NCBI GenBank assembly: GCA_963575745.1 | Contig: CAUYUJ010016283.1 | Coordinates: 130,001 to 194,000, forward strand | Source: Prorocentrum cordatum | Lineage: Eukaryota > Sar > Dinophyceae > Prorocentrales > Prorocentraceae | Length of the DNA stretch: 64,000 nucleotides | Reading direction: 5' to 3' | In this document: positions 7,598 through 61,773 of the stretch, piece by piece | How positions within the stretch are numbered: position 1 is the stretch's first letter | How the letters are laid out: each line of letters begins with the position of its first letter | Program-made: the position numbers and the translations under genes | Notes under the pieces: generated by a model | Database searches by the model: none | Told to the model about the DNA's origin: nothing | The model's input: only the letters and a program-made list of their open reading frames with translations

Positions 7598-7618
7598 CTT
7601 GAGCCAAAGCGGCCGCGG
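7598..7618 (-). repeat. Candidate dinoflagellate spliced-leader relict
   Basis: On the minus strand these 21 bases match the SL at 17 of 21 positions, including an exact 3' half TTTGGCTCAAG. All four differences are transitions towards G or C. A match of this quality is unlikely by chance in 64 kb, but it is a single copy and weaker than the array near 48.3 kb. Confidence 0.5.
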
Positions 7619-7619
7619 A

Positions 7620-15660: not shown

Positions 15661-16607
15661 TCCTATATGTTATACGCCCGGGCAGGGGGAAAAACCATCA
15701 CACCCCAAAAAAACATACTCCCAGCATCTGAGGTTTTGGGACACTCTGGACGGGCCTCGAGGCGGCCACCAGGCCTCGCAGGGCGTTTTGCCAAGCCCTC
15801 CCAGCACACCTAGGGCGATCAGGGGGTCATCGGAGACGTTCCAGAGACCCCCAAGGCAGCACAAGAGCGCTCCAAGAGTGACCGACGTGACCTCAAGATG
15901 GCCCAAGGGGCCTCCAGGACGGCCCCAAAGAGGCCTTCAAGAGCACTCCCAAAAAGGCCCCCCGAGGCAAAAATCATTGATTTTCTGATAGGTTTTTGGT
16001 GAATTTGGGGGTTCTCCTCTTTTCGGCTTCCCGACGCTCCCAGACGGCGGTCTTCTGGGCGTGCGAAGCCGCCTGGGAGGCTCCAAAATCGCCCCACAAC
16101 CATCCGAAAGGGCTTCAGGCAATCCAAGAGAGCCCCAAAACGGCCCAACACGGGTCCAAGATGGCCGTCACAGAGCCCCATGGCGGCCCACGATGGCCCA
16201 AAGGCACCCTCCGAAGCATTCCGAATCGTGACCCGGTCGTGCAGGGAGACCGCAGTTGGAGGCAGAGTGGCCCGAGGACCTCCCCGGAGGCCCCCAGAAT
16301 AAGCCCAGGAGGACTCCAGAAGGCTTGAAGAAAGCCTGGAAAAACTTGTGTGAAACCCCTAGAGGCTCTCCAAGGAGGAGCCTCCGCAAAAAAAATGAGG
16401 AGGATGGGGAAAATGCGCAGGGTAAGGCGAAAAAAAAAAAATACGCATGGAGGAAGGATAACAAATAACATTACTATAGCGACGATGCCGGGAAAAGGCA
16501 ACCAAGAGTGATCGTTCAATTGTCGGCTTGGCCTTCCTGCTATTCCGCCTGCATGCCAAATTTCAAGGACCAAGGTGCACGGCGCGTAGCGCCATTGCAT
16601 TCTTGTG
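15661..16607 (+). mobile_element. TA-flanked element, copy A (most complete direct copy)
   Basis: The element is bordered by TA tracts at 15,643-15,660 and from 16,608. Near its left end it has ATACGCCCGGGC and it ends GCGTAGCGCCATTGCATTCTTGTG. The body starts with CTCGCAGGGCG and CCAAGATGG/CCAAGAGG words, then TTCGGCTTCCCGACGCTCC, then a right part with CTCTCCAAGGAGGAGCCTCCGC and TTGTCGGCTTGGCC. No open frame is conserved between copies and I see no transposase, so it is probably non-autonomous. Copies B (16,662) and C (33,158, inverted) share both ends and the body order. Confidence 0.75.
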
Positions 16608-16661
16608 TATATATATATATATACATACATACATACATACATACATACATACACACATATA
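16608..16661 (+). repeat. (TA)n and (CATA)n between element copies
   Basis: A short TA run grades into CATACATACATA before copy B. Both copies are thus separated only by microsatellite. Confidence 0.85.
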
Positions 16662-17415
16662 TTCCTCTTCCTATATTCTTATAAGCCCGGGCGGGGGGGA
16701 AACCCGTCCCCCCCCCATAAACGGATTCCCCGGACCTAGGGTTTTGGGGCCCTCCGGACGGGCCTCGAAGCGGCCACCGGGCCTCGCAAGGCGCTTTGCC
16801 AAGCCTTCCCAACACACTTAGGGCGATCAGGGGGGTCATCGGAGACGTCCCAGAGACCCCCAAGGCAGCACAAGAGCGCTCCAAGAGTGACCGACGTGAC
16901 CTCAAGATGGCCCAAGAGGCCCCCAGGACGGCCCCAAAGAGGCCTCCAAGAGCACTCCCAAAAAGGCCCCCGAAGCAAAAATCATTGATTTTTTATGGGT
17001 TGTTGGTGAATTTGGGGGTTCTCCTCTTTTCGGCTTCCCGACGCTCCAAGACGGCGGTCTTCTGGGCGTCCGAAGCCGCCTGGGAGGCTCCCAAATCGCC
17101 CCACGACCATCCGAAAGGGCTTCCAGGCAGTCCAAGGGAGCCCCAAGACGACACAACACGGGTCCAAGATGGCCCTCAGAGACCCCATGGCGGCCCAAGA
17201 TGGCCCAAAGACACCCTCCGAAATGTTTCCAAATCGTGATTCGGTCGTTCAGGGAGACGGCGGTTGGAGGCAGAGTGGCCCGAGGAAGCCCCCAGAGGCC
17301 TCCAGAATACGCCCAGGAGGCTCAATTGTCGGTTTGGACTTCCTGCTATTCCGCCTGCATACCAAACTTCAAGGACCAAGGTGTACGGCGCGAAGCGCCA
17401 CTGTAGTCTTGCGTG
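16662..17415 (+). mobile_element. TA-flanked element, copy B (internally deleted)
   Basis: The copy begins TTATAAGCCCGGGCGG and ends GCGAAGCGCCACTGTAGTCTTGCGTG. It follows copy A base for base over most of its length but lacks about 200 bases present in A near 16,315-16,520. The deletion joins GCCCAGGAGG to TCAATTGTCGG. Tandem placement next to A suggests either two insertions into the same TA tract or a duplication. Confidence 0.75.
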
Positions 17416-33164: not shown

Positions 33165-34123
33165 CACGAGACTGCAGTGGCGCTTCGCGACATGCACCTT
33201 GGTCCTTGAAGCTTGGTATGCAGGCGGGGTAGCAGGAAGGTCAAGCCGACAATTTAGCGGTAACTCCTGGTTGCCTTTTCTGGCATCGCCGCTATAATAA
33301 TGTTATTCGTTATCCTTCCTCCATGTTTTTCCTTATTTTCGCCATGCCCTGCGCATTCTCCCCATCCTCCTCAGCTCTTTTTTGCGGAGGCCCCTCCTTG
33401 GAGAGCCTCTAGGGGCCTCACAAAAGTTGTTCCAGGCTTTCTTAAGGCCTTCTGGAGACCTCCTGGGCGTATTCTGGGGGCCTCCGGGGGCTTTCTCGGG
33501 CCACCCTGCCTCCAACCACGGTCTCCCTGAACGACCGAATCACGATTTGGAATTCTTCGGAGGGTGCCTTTCGGCCATCTTGGGCCGCCGTGGGGCTCTC
33601 CGAGGGCCATCTCGGACCTGTGTTGTGCCGTTTGGGGGCTCTCTTGGCCTGCCTGGAAACCTTTTCGGATGGTTGTGGGGCGATCGTGGAGCCTCCCAGG
33701 CGGCTTCGGACGCCCAGAAGACCGCCGTCTTGGAGCGTCGGGAAGCCGACAAGAGGAGAACCCCAACATTCACCAAGAACCAAACGAAAATCCGTGATTT
33801 TTGCCTCGGGGGGCCTTTTTGGGAGTGCTTTTGGAGGCCTCTTTGGGGCCGTCCTGGAGGCCTCTTGGGCCATCTTGAGGTCACGTCGGTCACTCTTGGA
33901 GCGCGCTTGTGCTGTCTAAGGGGTCTCTGGGACGTCTCCGATGACCCCCCTGATCGCCCGAGGTGTTCTGGGAAGGCTTGGCAAAGCGCCATGTGAGGCC
34001 GAGGGGCCGCTTCGAGGCCCGTCTGGAGGGTCCCAAAGCCCCAGATCCCGGGACTCCGTTTTTTTTGTTTCGGGGGGGTGATGGGTTTTCCCCCCGCCCG
34101 GGCTTATACAAATATAGGGAGAG

Positions 34124-47056: not shown

Positions 47057-47790
47057 CTTCTCCCCCACTCTTTCTTGTTTCTGTTTCCTCAATTCATCAA
47101 GAAAGGATGGGTCAAGCAGGCCACACCTCCCCACGGCGCTCAGGAAGTCCACGTTCATGCACCAGCGCGCGAAGAAGCCCAAACGCGTTTCCCACGACGA
47201 TGGTACCAGGAAGCTGCGCACATGCAGCCCGCCAAGCCAGCCACATACAATGCCACATGTTGAGGACACGAAGGGAATCCGCCGCCAGCAAGACCCAAAC
47301 GACCAAAAGCGAAACTCCCCCCCAAGAATTCCAGGAACTTGCGCACGACAGCGCCGAAGTAGACCGGGGACAAGCGAACCCCGCGGACGCCCGCAGACAA
47401 TCGAAAACTAACAAATGTCCTGCAATACTGTATTCGGGGCGACTCGCTGAGGCCGAGGTGCTAGTCCCGCGTGCACGACCGAAACGAACACAGTCAAACA
47501 ACACAACTCACTCGGGAATTGCCGATGGAACTGTTGCTTCGAACTGCAGAAAAAGTGACTGTGACTGCAACGCAAGCACGCAGTAACCCATAGTGCCAAA
47601 TACCTGAAGGCGCCTTGATTGAAAAGACACCCACTACAGGACGAATAAGCAAGCCATGAACGAATGCAAAATGCGCTACGCCACCGCCACGCCCATTCTG
47701 GAAACCAAAAATGCACAGCTCAATGTACGGATGGCTGGCACATCCTTGAGCAGGGACTGCCCGTCCCGGCATTCTTATAGATCTACTACG
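47057..47790. other. Unassigned, weak coding-like frames
   Basis: Frames on both strands are open over 47,110-47,600, but none gives a recognised domain. Confidence 0.35.
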
Positions 47791-47792
47791 AA

Positions 47793-47937
47793 ATGTTCTC
47801 AGAGCCCAACAATGTTCTTAGAAGAAGACAATGTTCTTAGAACATGTGCCCGATGTGTTGAAACAAAACAGTCCCAGCCAGAAATGTTCGAAGAACATTG
47901 CGTGGAAACCACAAAAGGTTCTTAGGACATTGTTTGG
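47793..47937. repeat. Cluster of AATGTTCT..AGAACATT palindromes
   Basis: AATGTTCTCAGAG, AATGTTCTTAGAAG, ATGTTCTTAGAACAT (perfect 7-base arms), AATGTTCGAAGAACATT (perfect 7-base arms) and GGTTCTTAGGACATT lie within 145 bases. The last part of the 139-codon frame overlaps them. Confidence 0.7.
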
Positions 47938-48237
47938 TAGGCCTATAGGCACGCCGGGACGCTTCGTCACTGCTTGACATCCAGTTCGCACCATTTCAGT
48001 TGAAAGAACGATCGCAACATGAAGCACGAAGGGCGCACCCAAGAATTTGAACTTGAGTGACGGCATCCACGAACAAAGGGAACAACAGGTGACCAGTAAT
48101 ACTGCCACCCGACTGTGAGTATCTGGATGTGCGAGATACTCCTGCAGCAAAATTATCCGGCGTTCACCAGCGAAGGCCGCCCCGAATAAGGCGCGCATCG
48201 ACTGGCATTCAAGTCTGCACATGTGTGGTTCAGACAT
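47818..48237 (-). CDS. Hypothetical 139-codon frame just downstream of SL relicts
   Basis: The ATG at 48,237 lies only 12 bases after the last SL relict, the arrangement expected for a processed mRNA copy with a very short leader. The protein begins MSEPHMCRLECQSMRALFGA, contains RRIILLQEYLAHPDTHSR, then a hydrophobic stretch (VAVLLVTCCSLCSW) and a second one (GAPFVLHVAIVLSTEM) that could span membranes. An earlier ATG gives only a six-codon frame. No family is recognised. The C-terminal third crosses the AATGTTCT palindromes, so the true end may differ. Confidence 0.35.
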   Translation of the reverse strand: MSEPHMCRLECQSMRALFGAAFAGERRIILLQEYLAHPDTHSRVAVLLVTCCSLCSWMPSLKFKFLGAPFVLHVAIVLSTEMVRTGCQAVTKRPGVPIGLPNNVLRTFCGFHAMFFEHFWLGLFCFNTSGTCSKNIVFF

Positions 48238-48249
48238 GTCGCTCGCTCA

Positions 48250-48318
48250 TTTGAGCCTGACAGGCTTGGGCCGAGATGGGATTTGAGCCAAAATGGTTTG
48301 AGCCCAAATGGCCACTGT
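48250..48318 (-). repeat. Array of four spliced-leader relicts
   Basis: Read on the minus strand, the array holds four 15-mers: CCATTTGGGCTCAAA (48,311-48,297), CCATTTTGGCTCAAA (48,296-48,282), two bases, CCATCTCGGCCCAAG (48,279-48,265) and CCTGTCAGGCTCAAA (48,264-48,250). The dinoflagellate SL ends CCATTTTGGCTCAAG. The first two match at 27 of 30 bases, the third at 12 and the fourth at 11 of 15. The 15-base period is what arises when the AG inside an old SL is reused as the trans-splice acceptor. Decay increases downstream, as expected if each inner copy is older. Bases 48,312-48,318 weakly extend the first copy towards the SL 5' end. Confidence 0.92.
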
Positions 48319-48366
48319 CCCTCCTCCTCCTCCTCCTCCTCCTCCTCCTCCCCCTCCTCCTCCTCA
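48319..48366 (+). repeat. (TCC)n microsatellite
   Basis: A TCC run beginning right at the outer edge of the SL array. Confidence 0.9.
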
Positions 48367-48442
48367 CTCCTCCCTCCACCTGCTTCCCTCCTGTCTGCTG
48401 CCCTTTCTCCTCCATCTTTGTCCTCATCGCTGACTCCTGCGG

Positions 48443-49315
48443 CCCGGGCGTTTCGTCTGACCCTTTCTCGCCTCCCATGACCATGAAGTCTGCTGCAACG
48501 GTTTCACGGATGGAGGGCCTGCGTTTTCGAAATGTGGCTCTCGCTCCAGCGCCGCGCACAGTCGACGTAACAGGTTGCAACAGCTTCACGGTTGGAGAGC
48601 GGGTGTGTTCAAAGTTTCGGTCTCGCCACAGCGCCACGCACTTTCGCAAATTTGCAACATCTTCAAGGATGGAGGGCGGCTGGTGTTTGAAATGTGTCGC
48701 TCGCCTTAGCGCCGCGCTCATTCGTCTTGAAAGTGTGCAGTAGGTTCAGGGGTGGACGCAAGATCGTTTTCAAAATGTTGTTATCGCCACGCCGCGCACA
48801 GTCGCCGTAAACGTTTGCATCCGAATAAATGACGGAGGGCGGTTCCTTTCCGAAATGTGACTCTTGCCTTAGGACCACACACGCTCAGCCGCTCGTCCGA
48901 ACAAATAGCAACACTTCCGGAGATTTAGTATTGTCGATGTCCCTGGAACAGCGTGCTGGCACGATCTAGGATTTGCCAGGACGCAGCCGTTAAGTTGTTT
49001 CGCGGTGCTGGAGTCCCAGGAACGGCGTTCTGGTACGATTTACGTAGGAGTGCCAGGTCGCAACAGTCACGTTGGTCCGCAGCGTTGATACCCAAGAAAT
49101 GTATTTTTGCACGGTGGAGGATTATCAAACGGTTGTCTCCTAATGGGCCACTTCCGACCTTGAAACACATTCTCGAGACCTGTTCAGAAGGAGCTTAGAG
49201 GCAGGGTTGGTTGCAATCTACTTGACGCACCTCGGGCATACATTGGTCCTCCTCCTCCTCCTCCTCCTCCACCTTCTCCTCCTCAATGTTTTCCTCCGAC
49301 TCCACCACCTCCTCC
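48443..49315 (+). repeat. Modular composite repeat, copy 2
   Basis: CCCGGGCGTTTCGTCTGA; a sub-array of about 84-bp units with AGCGCCGCGCACAGTCG and ATGGAGGGCGGC (48,510-48,890); GGAACGGCGTTCTGGTACGAT; then a (TCC)n tract at 49,245-49,315. The sub-array has about five units, more than copy 1. Confidence 0.75.
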
Positions 49316-49570
49316 CCACCGCGCACACGAGGTTGAGGTCGAGTTCGCAACCCACCCCAATCCAGACAGAGCTGCAGGGGGGCGTGAACTCGACCTCCAC
49401 CCTGCCGCGCGCAGACGAGGTCGAGATCACGACTCCTCCCAGTCGTCGGAATTGCGCTGTTCCTGCAAATCGTACCCTTACTGGTGCGTTGTTGCACAAG
49501 CATAGGGGCGGGTGTTGCTTCGAACAATTCGGTACCTCGTCCCTGTCGTACCCCAAAGCGTGTCAGTAGG
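49316..49570. other. Unassigned
   Basis: GAGGTCGAG appears twice, 82 bases apart (49,334 and 49,416). No gene is recognised. Confidence 0.35.
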
Positions 49571-50333
49571 AGGGGTCGGGCGTTTCGCTTGAGACTGCCT
49601 CACCACTTGCGACCCTGATGCTCAAGCTTGGCAACAGCTGGAATGATTTGAGGGAGATCGAATTCAAAACGGGGCTCTCTCCTCAGCGCCGCCCACCTTC
49701 GCCTTGAACATTTGCAGCGGTGCATTCGCCTTAGCGCAGCGCACATTCGTCGTAAAAGTGGCAAAAAAACGCGTCAGGTATGGAGGGGTGGTGGTTTGGG
49801 AAAATTTGCCCATCGCCGTGGCGCAGCTCGCATTCTTATGTACAATTCGCAACTGCTTCAAACATGGAGGGAAATTCCGTTTCACGCTGGGGCTCTCGCC
49901 TCAGCCCTATTCACATTCGTCCTACAAGTTCGTAGCAGATGCAGAGGTGAAGGACGGCTCCTGTTCAAGACGGGGCTTCAGCTTGAAACTCCTGCGCATT
50001 TAGAAAACATAACTCTGAACACATGCAACAGCTGAAAGGGTGGAGGGCGGATTCTCTTCGACGTGGGGCTTTCGCTTGAGACTGCCTCGAGGCCATGATT
50101 CGATGTTAAAACAATACGGTAATAATACCTTTGCGGCATGATTATCGCTCGCTGGCAAGACGAGATGCAACCAGACACAGGAACGGTCTTACCAAAGGTG
50201 GCTGCTTGCAGTGAAGGATACGGTTCGTAGGAATGTTCGACGAAAGGACTTGGGAAGGGTGGTTTGCAGAACCGTTGATGAATATTTGATTCAGTCTGGC
50301 CCTCCTCCTCCTCCTCCTCCTCATCATGCCCCT
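49571..50333 (+). repeat. Modular composite repeat, copy 3
   Basis: GGGTCGGGCGTTTCGCTTGAGACT; sub-array units with CTCAGCGCCGCCCACCTTCG, CCTTAGCGCAGCGCACATTCG and CATGGAGGGAAATTCCG; a diverged later block; then CCTCCTCCTCCTCCTCCTCATC. The third module is weaker than in copies 1 and 2. Confidence 0.65.
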
Positions 50334-50565
50334 CTGCATCTTCCTCTTCCTCATTGTCTTGTCATCAGCATCTGCATCAGCACCAAACACCACAAGTATC
50401 ATCATCATCATCACCACCATCATCAGTACAAGTACAATAGATGTATGTATGTTCATCATCGTCGCTATCATCATCAGTCGCATGATCATCATCACCATCA
50501 GCATCACCATTATCATCCTCATCATCCTCATCCTCGTCATCATAACCATCACGACATCTGTCTGC
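50334..50565 (+). repeat. (ATC)n-rich block
   Basis: ATCATCATC/CATCACC triplets, complementary to the GAT blocks elsewhere. Confidence 0.9.
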
Positions 50566-59500: not shown

Positions 59501-60062
59501 CCGGAAACGGCCGCCTAAATTGCAAGCTTTGCGACGCGATCAATCGCCGAAAGGTGCCAGGCGCGCATCGCGAGGGCAGGCGCGCATTGCAAGAGAAGGA
59601 AGATCCCCACTGCAGCTTGACACGCGAACGAAACAAACGTTTCGGCGCGCTGGTTTGATCTACCGGCCACCATTGAGCCACCCTGATATTCGCGATTTCC
59701 TCGAAGTTGATCTGCCCATCGCCATCCACGTCGATTTCGCGAATCATCTGGTCGGCCGCCTGATCAGCGAGCTTCTCACCGAGGTTCGCCATCGCGTGGC
59801 GCAGCTCGGCGGCGCTGACGAATCCGATCCCGTCCAGATCGAACACTTTGAATGATTCGATAACCTCCTGCTCCGCATTGGTGTCCCCATCTTCCGCGGC
59901 ATGAGCGGCACGACCTCGGGGAAATCGATCGTGCCGTTGCCATCCGCGTGAATATCGTTGATCATGTTTCGCGTATCCGCCTCGGTGGGGTTCTGGCCAA
60001 GCGAGCGCATGACTGTGCCAAGCTCGTTCGTGGTGATGGTGTCATCGCCATCGTTATCGAAC

Positions 60063-61614
60063 CAGCATCGCCTTGGTGACGGCGCCGCCCAGCCAGGAAG
60101 CCTGGCGTGACAGCGGCCTGGCGATAACAATTCATGAACAGTCAGACGAACGGGCACCAGTGCGGGCCCCAGACATGGTCCGGGCCAAGGGCGCCGAAGA
60201 AACAGAATCGCGAGTGGCATCCTTGCGGCCAGCCACATGAGGAGATGGCATTGCGCCATCAGGTGTTAAGAAAGGATAGGGAGCTGCGTCGCCTGCACAG
60301 CCCGATCGCCCGCAGCAGCCCTCCATTGCGGCGGGCACGCGAGAACGAGCACAAACACTGCACTGTAAAAGGTCTGTGCCCATACGTATCATGCACGTGC
60401 ATATCCACCATTGCGGCGGCATCAGTCGAAGTGGCCGGATTGCCCACTGCCACACATACTTGTTGAAGAGCCGAACTGCCAGGACCAAGCCCCGCCGGGG
60501 GGGGATCCAGGGAGCGTAGCCAGGCAGCCTGGGCCGCCTCCATATTGGCGAGGCCCTGGTCACTGAACTTCAAAGGGCCTCGGACTTTCAAATTCAAAAG
60601 CGACTCGCTGACGATCACATCGACAACCCAGCGAAAACGGGCGAGCCGGTCCGGGGGCCTGTTGCCAGCATATAGAGAAAGGATGTCCGTGCGCGTCCTG
60701 TACTGCCGGACGGTGCCATTTCCAAGTGGTCCGATAACAGGTTGGCGAAGCCCTCGGTGACGTCAGCGTCCGTAAGGATGTCAAGCTCCATCGTGTTGTC
60801 CAACTCTAGGTCACCAGTGCTGGGCACGACGGCGTCCTCAGCGTCACGCGAATCGCGCGCAAGTTGGCGCTTCACGATATTGGCCGCCTCTGGCGATAGC
60901 ACTGCGCCAGCAGGTGGCCACCTCCGGCGGAGAGCAGCGGCGAAGACATCAGTGGTGCTGGTGGGCCCAGCTGGTGCTGCTCGGCGCACGCTTCCAGGAA
61001 TGGGCACATCAAATCCCAGGCCTCGACAAGGCCATCATCCCACGCGGGCGCTGCTGCAGCTGGGCCGACACCGTCTGGGACAGCAGCAGCCAAGCCGTCG
61101 GACGTAGGCGGAGGCGCGGCAACCGTGGCCAACCCCTAAGGCCGGCACAACACGCGCAGGCACGGGCTCGACCGTGCAGCGGAGGCGCCCGAGACCATGG
61201 CAGTTTGCGGGCCTCCTGCGAGCTTGCGGACCTCCTCACGAGAAAGCTGGCGCAGGCCACTGAGAAGGGCCCGGCCAGTCTCATGAGAAACAATATTTTG
61301 CCATTGGAGACGATCTGAGAGATCCCGAGCGTCGTCACCACAGTCAGAATCACCATCAGAAACGATGCGAAAGTATACGGGTCCGTTGCCATGGATGGCA
61401 TGCATGAGCGAGTTCCAAACCACCACGAGGACGGCCGTGAACCCATCGATGATGGAGCCGATGAGGGAACACACGAATAATTGATAGCGACACGCCGACT
61501 CCAACCAAAGATCCTCTTGCCCGTGGCGGGAAGAAACAGCAGGCATGAACATCAAATCGGTGAGCACCTTCTGCTGAGACCCCTCGACGATCTGGTACGC
61601 GTGCTCGGCGAGGG
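60063..61614. mobile_element. 1,552-bp insertion in calmodulin EF-hand 1
   Basis: The insert is bounded by CGCCATCGTTATCGAAC (60,046-60,062) and CGCCATCATTATCGAAC (61,615-61,631), a 17-base direct repeat with one mismatch that belongs to the calmodulin sequence itself. This fits a target-site duplication. No canonical GT/GC..AG pair falls at the joints, so I do not call it an intron. Inside, minus-strand frames look partly coding: CRYQLFVCSLIGSIIDGFTA (61,480, hydrophobic), and RDSRDAEDAVVPSTGDLELD with MELDILTDADVTEGFANLLS (60,740-60,850). I recognise no transposase. Confidence 0.6.
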
Positions 61615-61751
61615 CGCCATCATTATCGAACAACGAGAATGCCTCCTTGAAATCCGCGATCGGCGCCTCTGTCAGCTGGTTAACCATGGAGCATAGGTGG
61701 CGAGATCCCGTGCTGAACGCATTCAGCGGACGGCTACGCGAGACGAACCGA

Positions 61752-61773
61752 CTTGAGCAACAATGGCTCCGGG
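61752..61773 (-). repeat. Spliced-leader relict at the calmodulin 5' end
   Basis: The 22 bases match the SL at 18 positions; the 3' part reads CCATTGTTGCTCAAG. Thirteen bases further downstream CGTAGCCGTCCGCTGAA resembles a second, older SL (CGTAGCC exact, then degenerate). The outer relict ends three bases from the flanking repeat, so the inserted cDNA appears to have been full length. Confidence 0.8.

Follow-up and report, generated by a model that had tools for sequence, protein, structure and literature searches.

Four cores of 15 nt each that resemble the dinoflagellate spliced leader (SL) lie at positions 48250-48318 on the minus strand of the 64,000-nt stretch of DNA analyzed here (henceforth the window, to which all coordinates refer). 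Scored against the SL core CCATTTTGGCTCAAG and read 5' to 3' on the minus strand, these are core 1 (CCATTTGGGCTCAAA, 48297-48311; 13/15), core 2 (CCATTTTGGCTCAAA, 48282-48296; 14/15), core 3 (CCATCTCGGCCCAAG, 48265-48279; 12/15), and core 4 (CCTGTCAGGCTCAAA, 48250-48264; 10/15). A preliminary description of this DNA had reported four 15-base minus-strand copies arranged head to tail. The four cores and the match of 27/30 for the outer pair (13/15 plus 14/15) were borne out, but copies 2 and 3 are split by a 2-nt TC (48280-48281), and of the 12 and 11 matches given for the inner copies only the former holds, with the innermost copy reaching 10/15. The cores thus follow each other at two exact steps of 15 nt, including the one from core 3 to core 4, and one step of 17 nt that results from the 2-nt insertion. 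Directly ahead of core 1 on the same strand, the prefix ACAGTGG (48312-48318) matches the SL start ACCGTAG at 5/7 positions, a score with a background rate of 0.9%, while the 7 nt ahead of the other three cores show 2, 1, and 4 matches (counted by hand). Because of this prefix, the outermost unit is better described as a worn full-length 22-nt SL (48297-48318, minus strand; 18/22 to ACCGTAGCCATTTTGGCTCAAG) that would be the last one acquired, and the array as one SL followed by three relicts with identities of 93, 80, and 67%.

It is unlikely that any of the four SL-like units is a chance resemblance, because the controls on the outer pair, on the SL plus relict, and on the inner pair all point the same way. 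None of 3000 permuted 15-mers attained the tandem score of 27/30 when run against the real window, and this score also withstood the comparison with shuffled sequence that the preliminary description had called for (0/300 dinucleotide shuffles, with a maximum of 22). Similarly, the 37-mer composed of SL and first relict scores 32/37 compared to a shuffle maximum of 25, and copies 3 and 4 as a pair with a 15-nt step score 22/30, which was equalled at none of 127,767 background positions (maximum 21). Taken singly, the chance of at least 12 matches within 11 positions is 0.00017 for relict 2, and that of at least 10 matches at one exact position is 0.00085 for relict 3. The best lone core is weaker evidence than the pair, with at least 14/15 found for 12/3000 permuted motifs and in 4/300 shuffles, and a best 22-mer of at least 18/22 was obtained with 6/2000 permuted 22-mers and in 3/300 shuffles. 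One might think of a 15-nt minisatellite that resembles the SL by chance, since a window would by expectation contain 2.2 lone 15-mers with at most 3 mismatches (5 were found, and 5/100 shuffles contained as many) and since TRF gives the array as just two 15-mer copies (score 53; 1 of 101 rows). However, neither permuted motifs nor shuffles ever attained the tandem score, the inner pair provides support of its own, and a second SL-tagged gene copy (calmodulin, see below) is found within the window. We consider this explanation very improbable and set it aside after the permutation, shuffle, and inner-pair controls.

Dinoflagellate SL RNA genes are arranged as tandem arrays, which would speak for a decayed array of such genes, i.e., for a source of SLs rather than a target. 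Yet the units are truncated cores of 15 nt, and the bases directly 3' of cores 1 to 4 are CC, TC, CC, and TG, so that no copy is followed by the GT donor and intron of an SL RNA gene. Rfam returned zero matches at gathering score for the window, a result that counts only if Rfam includes a dinoflagellate SL RNA family; at E<=1 it gave 32 weak matches, none of which reached its gathering score and most of which were to simple repeats of AT or GAT type. Because GT follows no copy, we dismissed SL RNA genes as the origin of the array and give this option next to no credence.

The array has an abrupt outer edge, with SL nucleotide 1 (48318) adjoining the pure run (48319-48351) of an (AGG)n tract on the minus strand (48319-48392) that ends exactly at the start of the full SL. 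The 4 nt after pure AGG runs amount to about 0.1% of positions, in a post hoc test chosen once this fact had been seen. Such a placement is consistent with a complete cDNA having been inserted into an AGG tract. The probable body of the retrocopied RNA occupies 47064-48249 (minus strand), with a 3' limit that we place at the start of an AGG-rich tract on its far side (46639-47063, minus strand), a candidate for the other part of a split target tract. The surrounding DNA (46043-50390, minus strand) contains three diverged direct copies, at uneven spacing, of a compound unit composed of an AGG tract, repeats of roughly 75 nt, repeats of roughly 80 nt, and a common end. The flanking units at 46043-46724, 48439-49333, and 49567-50390 were first taken as evidence of a clean empty site, but we do not claim such a site because the spacers between units do not align (A insert versus B upstream scored 35; best of 30 shuffles, 45).

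Counted against a retrocopy is that the downstream body displays neither a parent gene nor a coding signal in the ORFs and tests that follow. Its 139-aa ORF (47818-48237), the one body ORF compared with a large protein set, had zero protein matches at E<=1 (9 candidates), and the two body ORFs scanned against Pfam, this one included, gave no match. No period-3 signal was detected over the whole body (47070-48249; 51% of shuffles as high), and of seven 300-nt slices one stood out at p = 0.02 (47799-47500); calmodulin as a control scored above all 500 shuffles. The body may still be a badly decayed coding sequence, since only 7 of 393 codons in frame 0 are stops, against 12 and 9 stops in the other frames. 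Near 47066-47090 there may be a decayed poly(A) tail, which we do not claim as it sits in purine-rich sequence. The body also contains a 226-bp inverted-repeat element (47749-47974) with 58-nt arms of 71% complementarity and several AATGTTCT(T/A)AGAACATT-like palindromes, possibly a MITE- or introner-like insertion.

The only gene recognized among the ORFs scanned is a broken copy of calmodulin (59676-61687, minus strand), with residues 1-24 at 61687-61613 and residues 19-148 in two frames at about 60064-59676. Between these parts lies a 1.57-kb insertion that begins in codons 19-24, and the 16-nt repeat on its two sides (15/16, judged by eye) resembles a target-site duplication. Pfam matches, exclusively to EF-hands, were obtained for 1 of 71 chosen ORFs (149 ORFs of at least 150 aa were listed) and again for 1 of ten proteins in another scan. 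A second SL-like 22-mer (61752-61773, minus strand; 18/22) lies 64 nt upstream of the calmodulin ATG and thus inside the usual 5'-UTR length of 50-100 nt that has been described as the place of better kept DinoSL relicts (PMC6050394). This SL-tagged calmodulin copy supports a dinoflagellate host. A third SL-like 22-mer at 7598-7619 (minus strand) is weaker, with 17/22 matches (62/2000 permuted 22-mers reach at least this score) and no gene identified behind it. The three best separate SL-like sites of the window are all on the minus strand, as unidirectional gene orientation would give.

The G+C content of the window (58.7% by base counts; 0.49-0.66 in 2-kb bins) fits a dinoflagellate host by published figures, which are 59.7% for Prorocentrum cordatum and 60% for genomic reads of Alexandrium ostenfeldii. 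ARAGORN found no tRNA in the window. Two repeat-derived ORFs (15819-16992, minus strand, and 33446-33919, plus strand) have EukProt proteins labelled Pyramimonas sp. AAC as their only named relatives. In a search with window-repeat proteins (query including P0001 and P0002), hits among the best 8000 candidates scored were split evenly between EukProt Pyramimonas sp. AAC (6/12) and unnamed ENA records (6/12). Pyramimonas is a green alga, and these hits, which conflict with a dinoflagellate host, may reflect either contamination of that dataset or true affinity. Taking all of this together, we consider a dinoflagellate host very likely though not certain. In IMG/VR, a scan of which may omit entries close to the window's own genome, the relict-relict 30-mer was found in 0 contigs and the 21-nt SL in one. 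This AT-rich contig (L001:1936-2913, minus strand) has two exact 21-nt DinoSL sequences at a distance of 147 nt, the second of which heads a 254-aa ORF that looks richer in G+C by eye; this may represent a dinoflagellate mRNA that a virus captured, or else a chimeric assembly. A scan of IMG/VR with the window repeats gave one weak match, to a tyrosine/methionine/cysteine run at residues 103-131.

We judge it highly probable that the array marks the 5' end of a retrocopy made by serial SL re-tagging in the nuclear genome of a dinoflagellate. According to the published model, a new SL is added in every round while a relict of 15 nt stays behind (PMC12014239, PMC3229502). The unit length at our locus equals the relict length given in these sources, and only the outermost copy is preceded by the 5/7 prefix, as expected under this model, although the 2-nt offset breaks the 15-nt step and counts against it. 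The earlier suggestion that the step of 15 bases arises from the AG inside the old SL agrees with this model, as described in both sources, and with our statistics. What we see directly are four SL-like units that match beyond chance, the prefix of a full SL, and an abrupt edge; from these we infer reverse transcription, the number of rounds, and the following order of events. A trans-spliced RNA with the 22-nt SL would have been reverse-transcribed and inserted; upon transcription of this copy, the AG at SL nucleotides 6-7 would have served as the acceptor for a new SL, with the old one staying behind as a 15-nt relict. The outer copies would come from at least one further round, by our estimate probably two or three, and the last product would have been inserted at the (AGG)n run, all 22 nt of its SL lying right at the edge, and have been decaying since.

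At least two rounds are needed for a simple account of a relict that was cut precisely at the AG, and one full SL with three relicts would under the published model amount to up to four insertions. On the best reading, the retroposed trans-spliced RNA was recycled at least twice, and probably three or four times. We hold back from a round count because of two observations. The cores carry 2, 1, 3, and 5 mismatches from 5' to 3', with copy 1 more worn than copy 2, and neither the comparison of outer and inner mismatches (3/30 versus 8/30; Fisher one-sided p = 0.09) nor the share of orderings as well ordered (4/24) makes this decay gradient significant; it is suggestive only. Furthermore, a G>A change at position 15 is common to copies 1, 2, and 4, and the same change in at least three copies arises in 3-9% of simulations, depending on the transition rate assumed. 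Unit number and gradient are therefore not secure as a record of rounds, and from the proposal that one locus had passed several times through mRNA and back into the genome while decaying, the reading as SL and relicts stands, whereas four passes and the gradient are less supported.

These same observations speak for a course in which one or two rounds of retroposition produced an SL with a single relict and DNA slippage or unequal crossing-over then expanded the 15-nt unit to four, and so does the wealth of tandem repeats in the window (101 TRF rows). We regard such an expansion as the less probable course, yet one to be taken seriously. Against it, published relict series decay alike and are ascribed to recycling by their authors (PMC3229502). 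Zero substitutions other than that at position 15 are common to any copies, and the changes in copies 3 and 4 are unrelated, as separate histories would give. If expansion did occur, the array would count duplications and not RNA passages.

DinoSL-DinoRL retrogenes of dinoflagellates were reportedly described by Slamovits and Keeling in 2008. As in the published sets, a 22-nt SL at our locus precedes relicts of 15 nt whose cut lies at the AG after nucleotide 7; unlike those sets, which largely consist of transcripts, we find a worn genomic copy without a recognizable gene (PMC6050394, PMC12014239). The preliminary description had called four copies notable. Multiple relicts are indeed a small minority, with Haro et al. 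reporting two or more in 5% of 6544 retrogenes (PMC12014239), but three or four have already been published. Of the 238 unique SL-bearing Alexandrium ESTs examined by Jaeckisch et al., five have a third truncated SL and one has a fourth, and the similarity of the truncated SLs falls downstream (PMC3229502). Our array shares both the number of up to four truncated repeats and this trend, yet the ESTs are expressed while our relicts are worn (93, 80, and 67%) and lie in a copy without a recognizable gene. Similarly, Stephens et al. described 30 near-identical Polarella glacialis transcripts with four relics (PMC7245778). Several rounds were likewise inferred there from the relics on one transcript family, though those are full-length transcripts retrieved by BLASTN with an SL-plus-relic query and ours is a worn genomic copy. 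The locus is thus a further decayed genomic member of the published SL-plus-relict kind, and a good but ordinary example of it.

We see only a slim chance that the recycled RNA was non-coding, i.e., that a trans-spliced RNA with no protein-coding signal completed about four turns of the DNA-RNA-DNA cycle. If so, SL tagging alone could sustain recycling, which would then not depend on how useful an encoded protein is. The change at position 15 in three copies means that the count of SL units need not equal the number of retroposition rounds. Worn genomic arrays like this one complement transcript-based surveys by adding seemingly dead retrocopies that have kept a sharp insertion edge.
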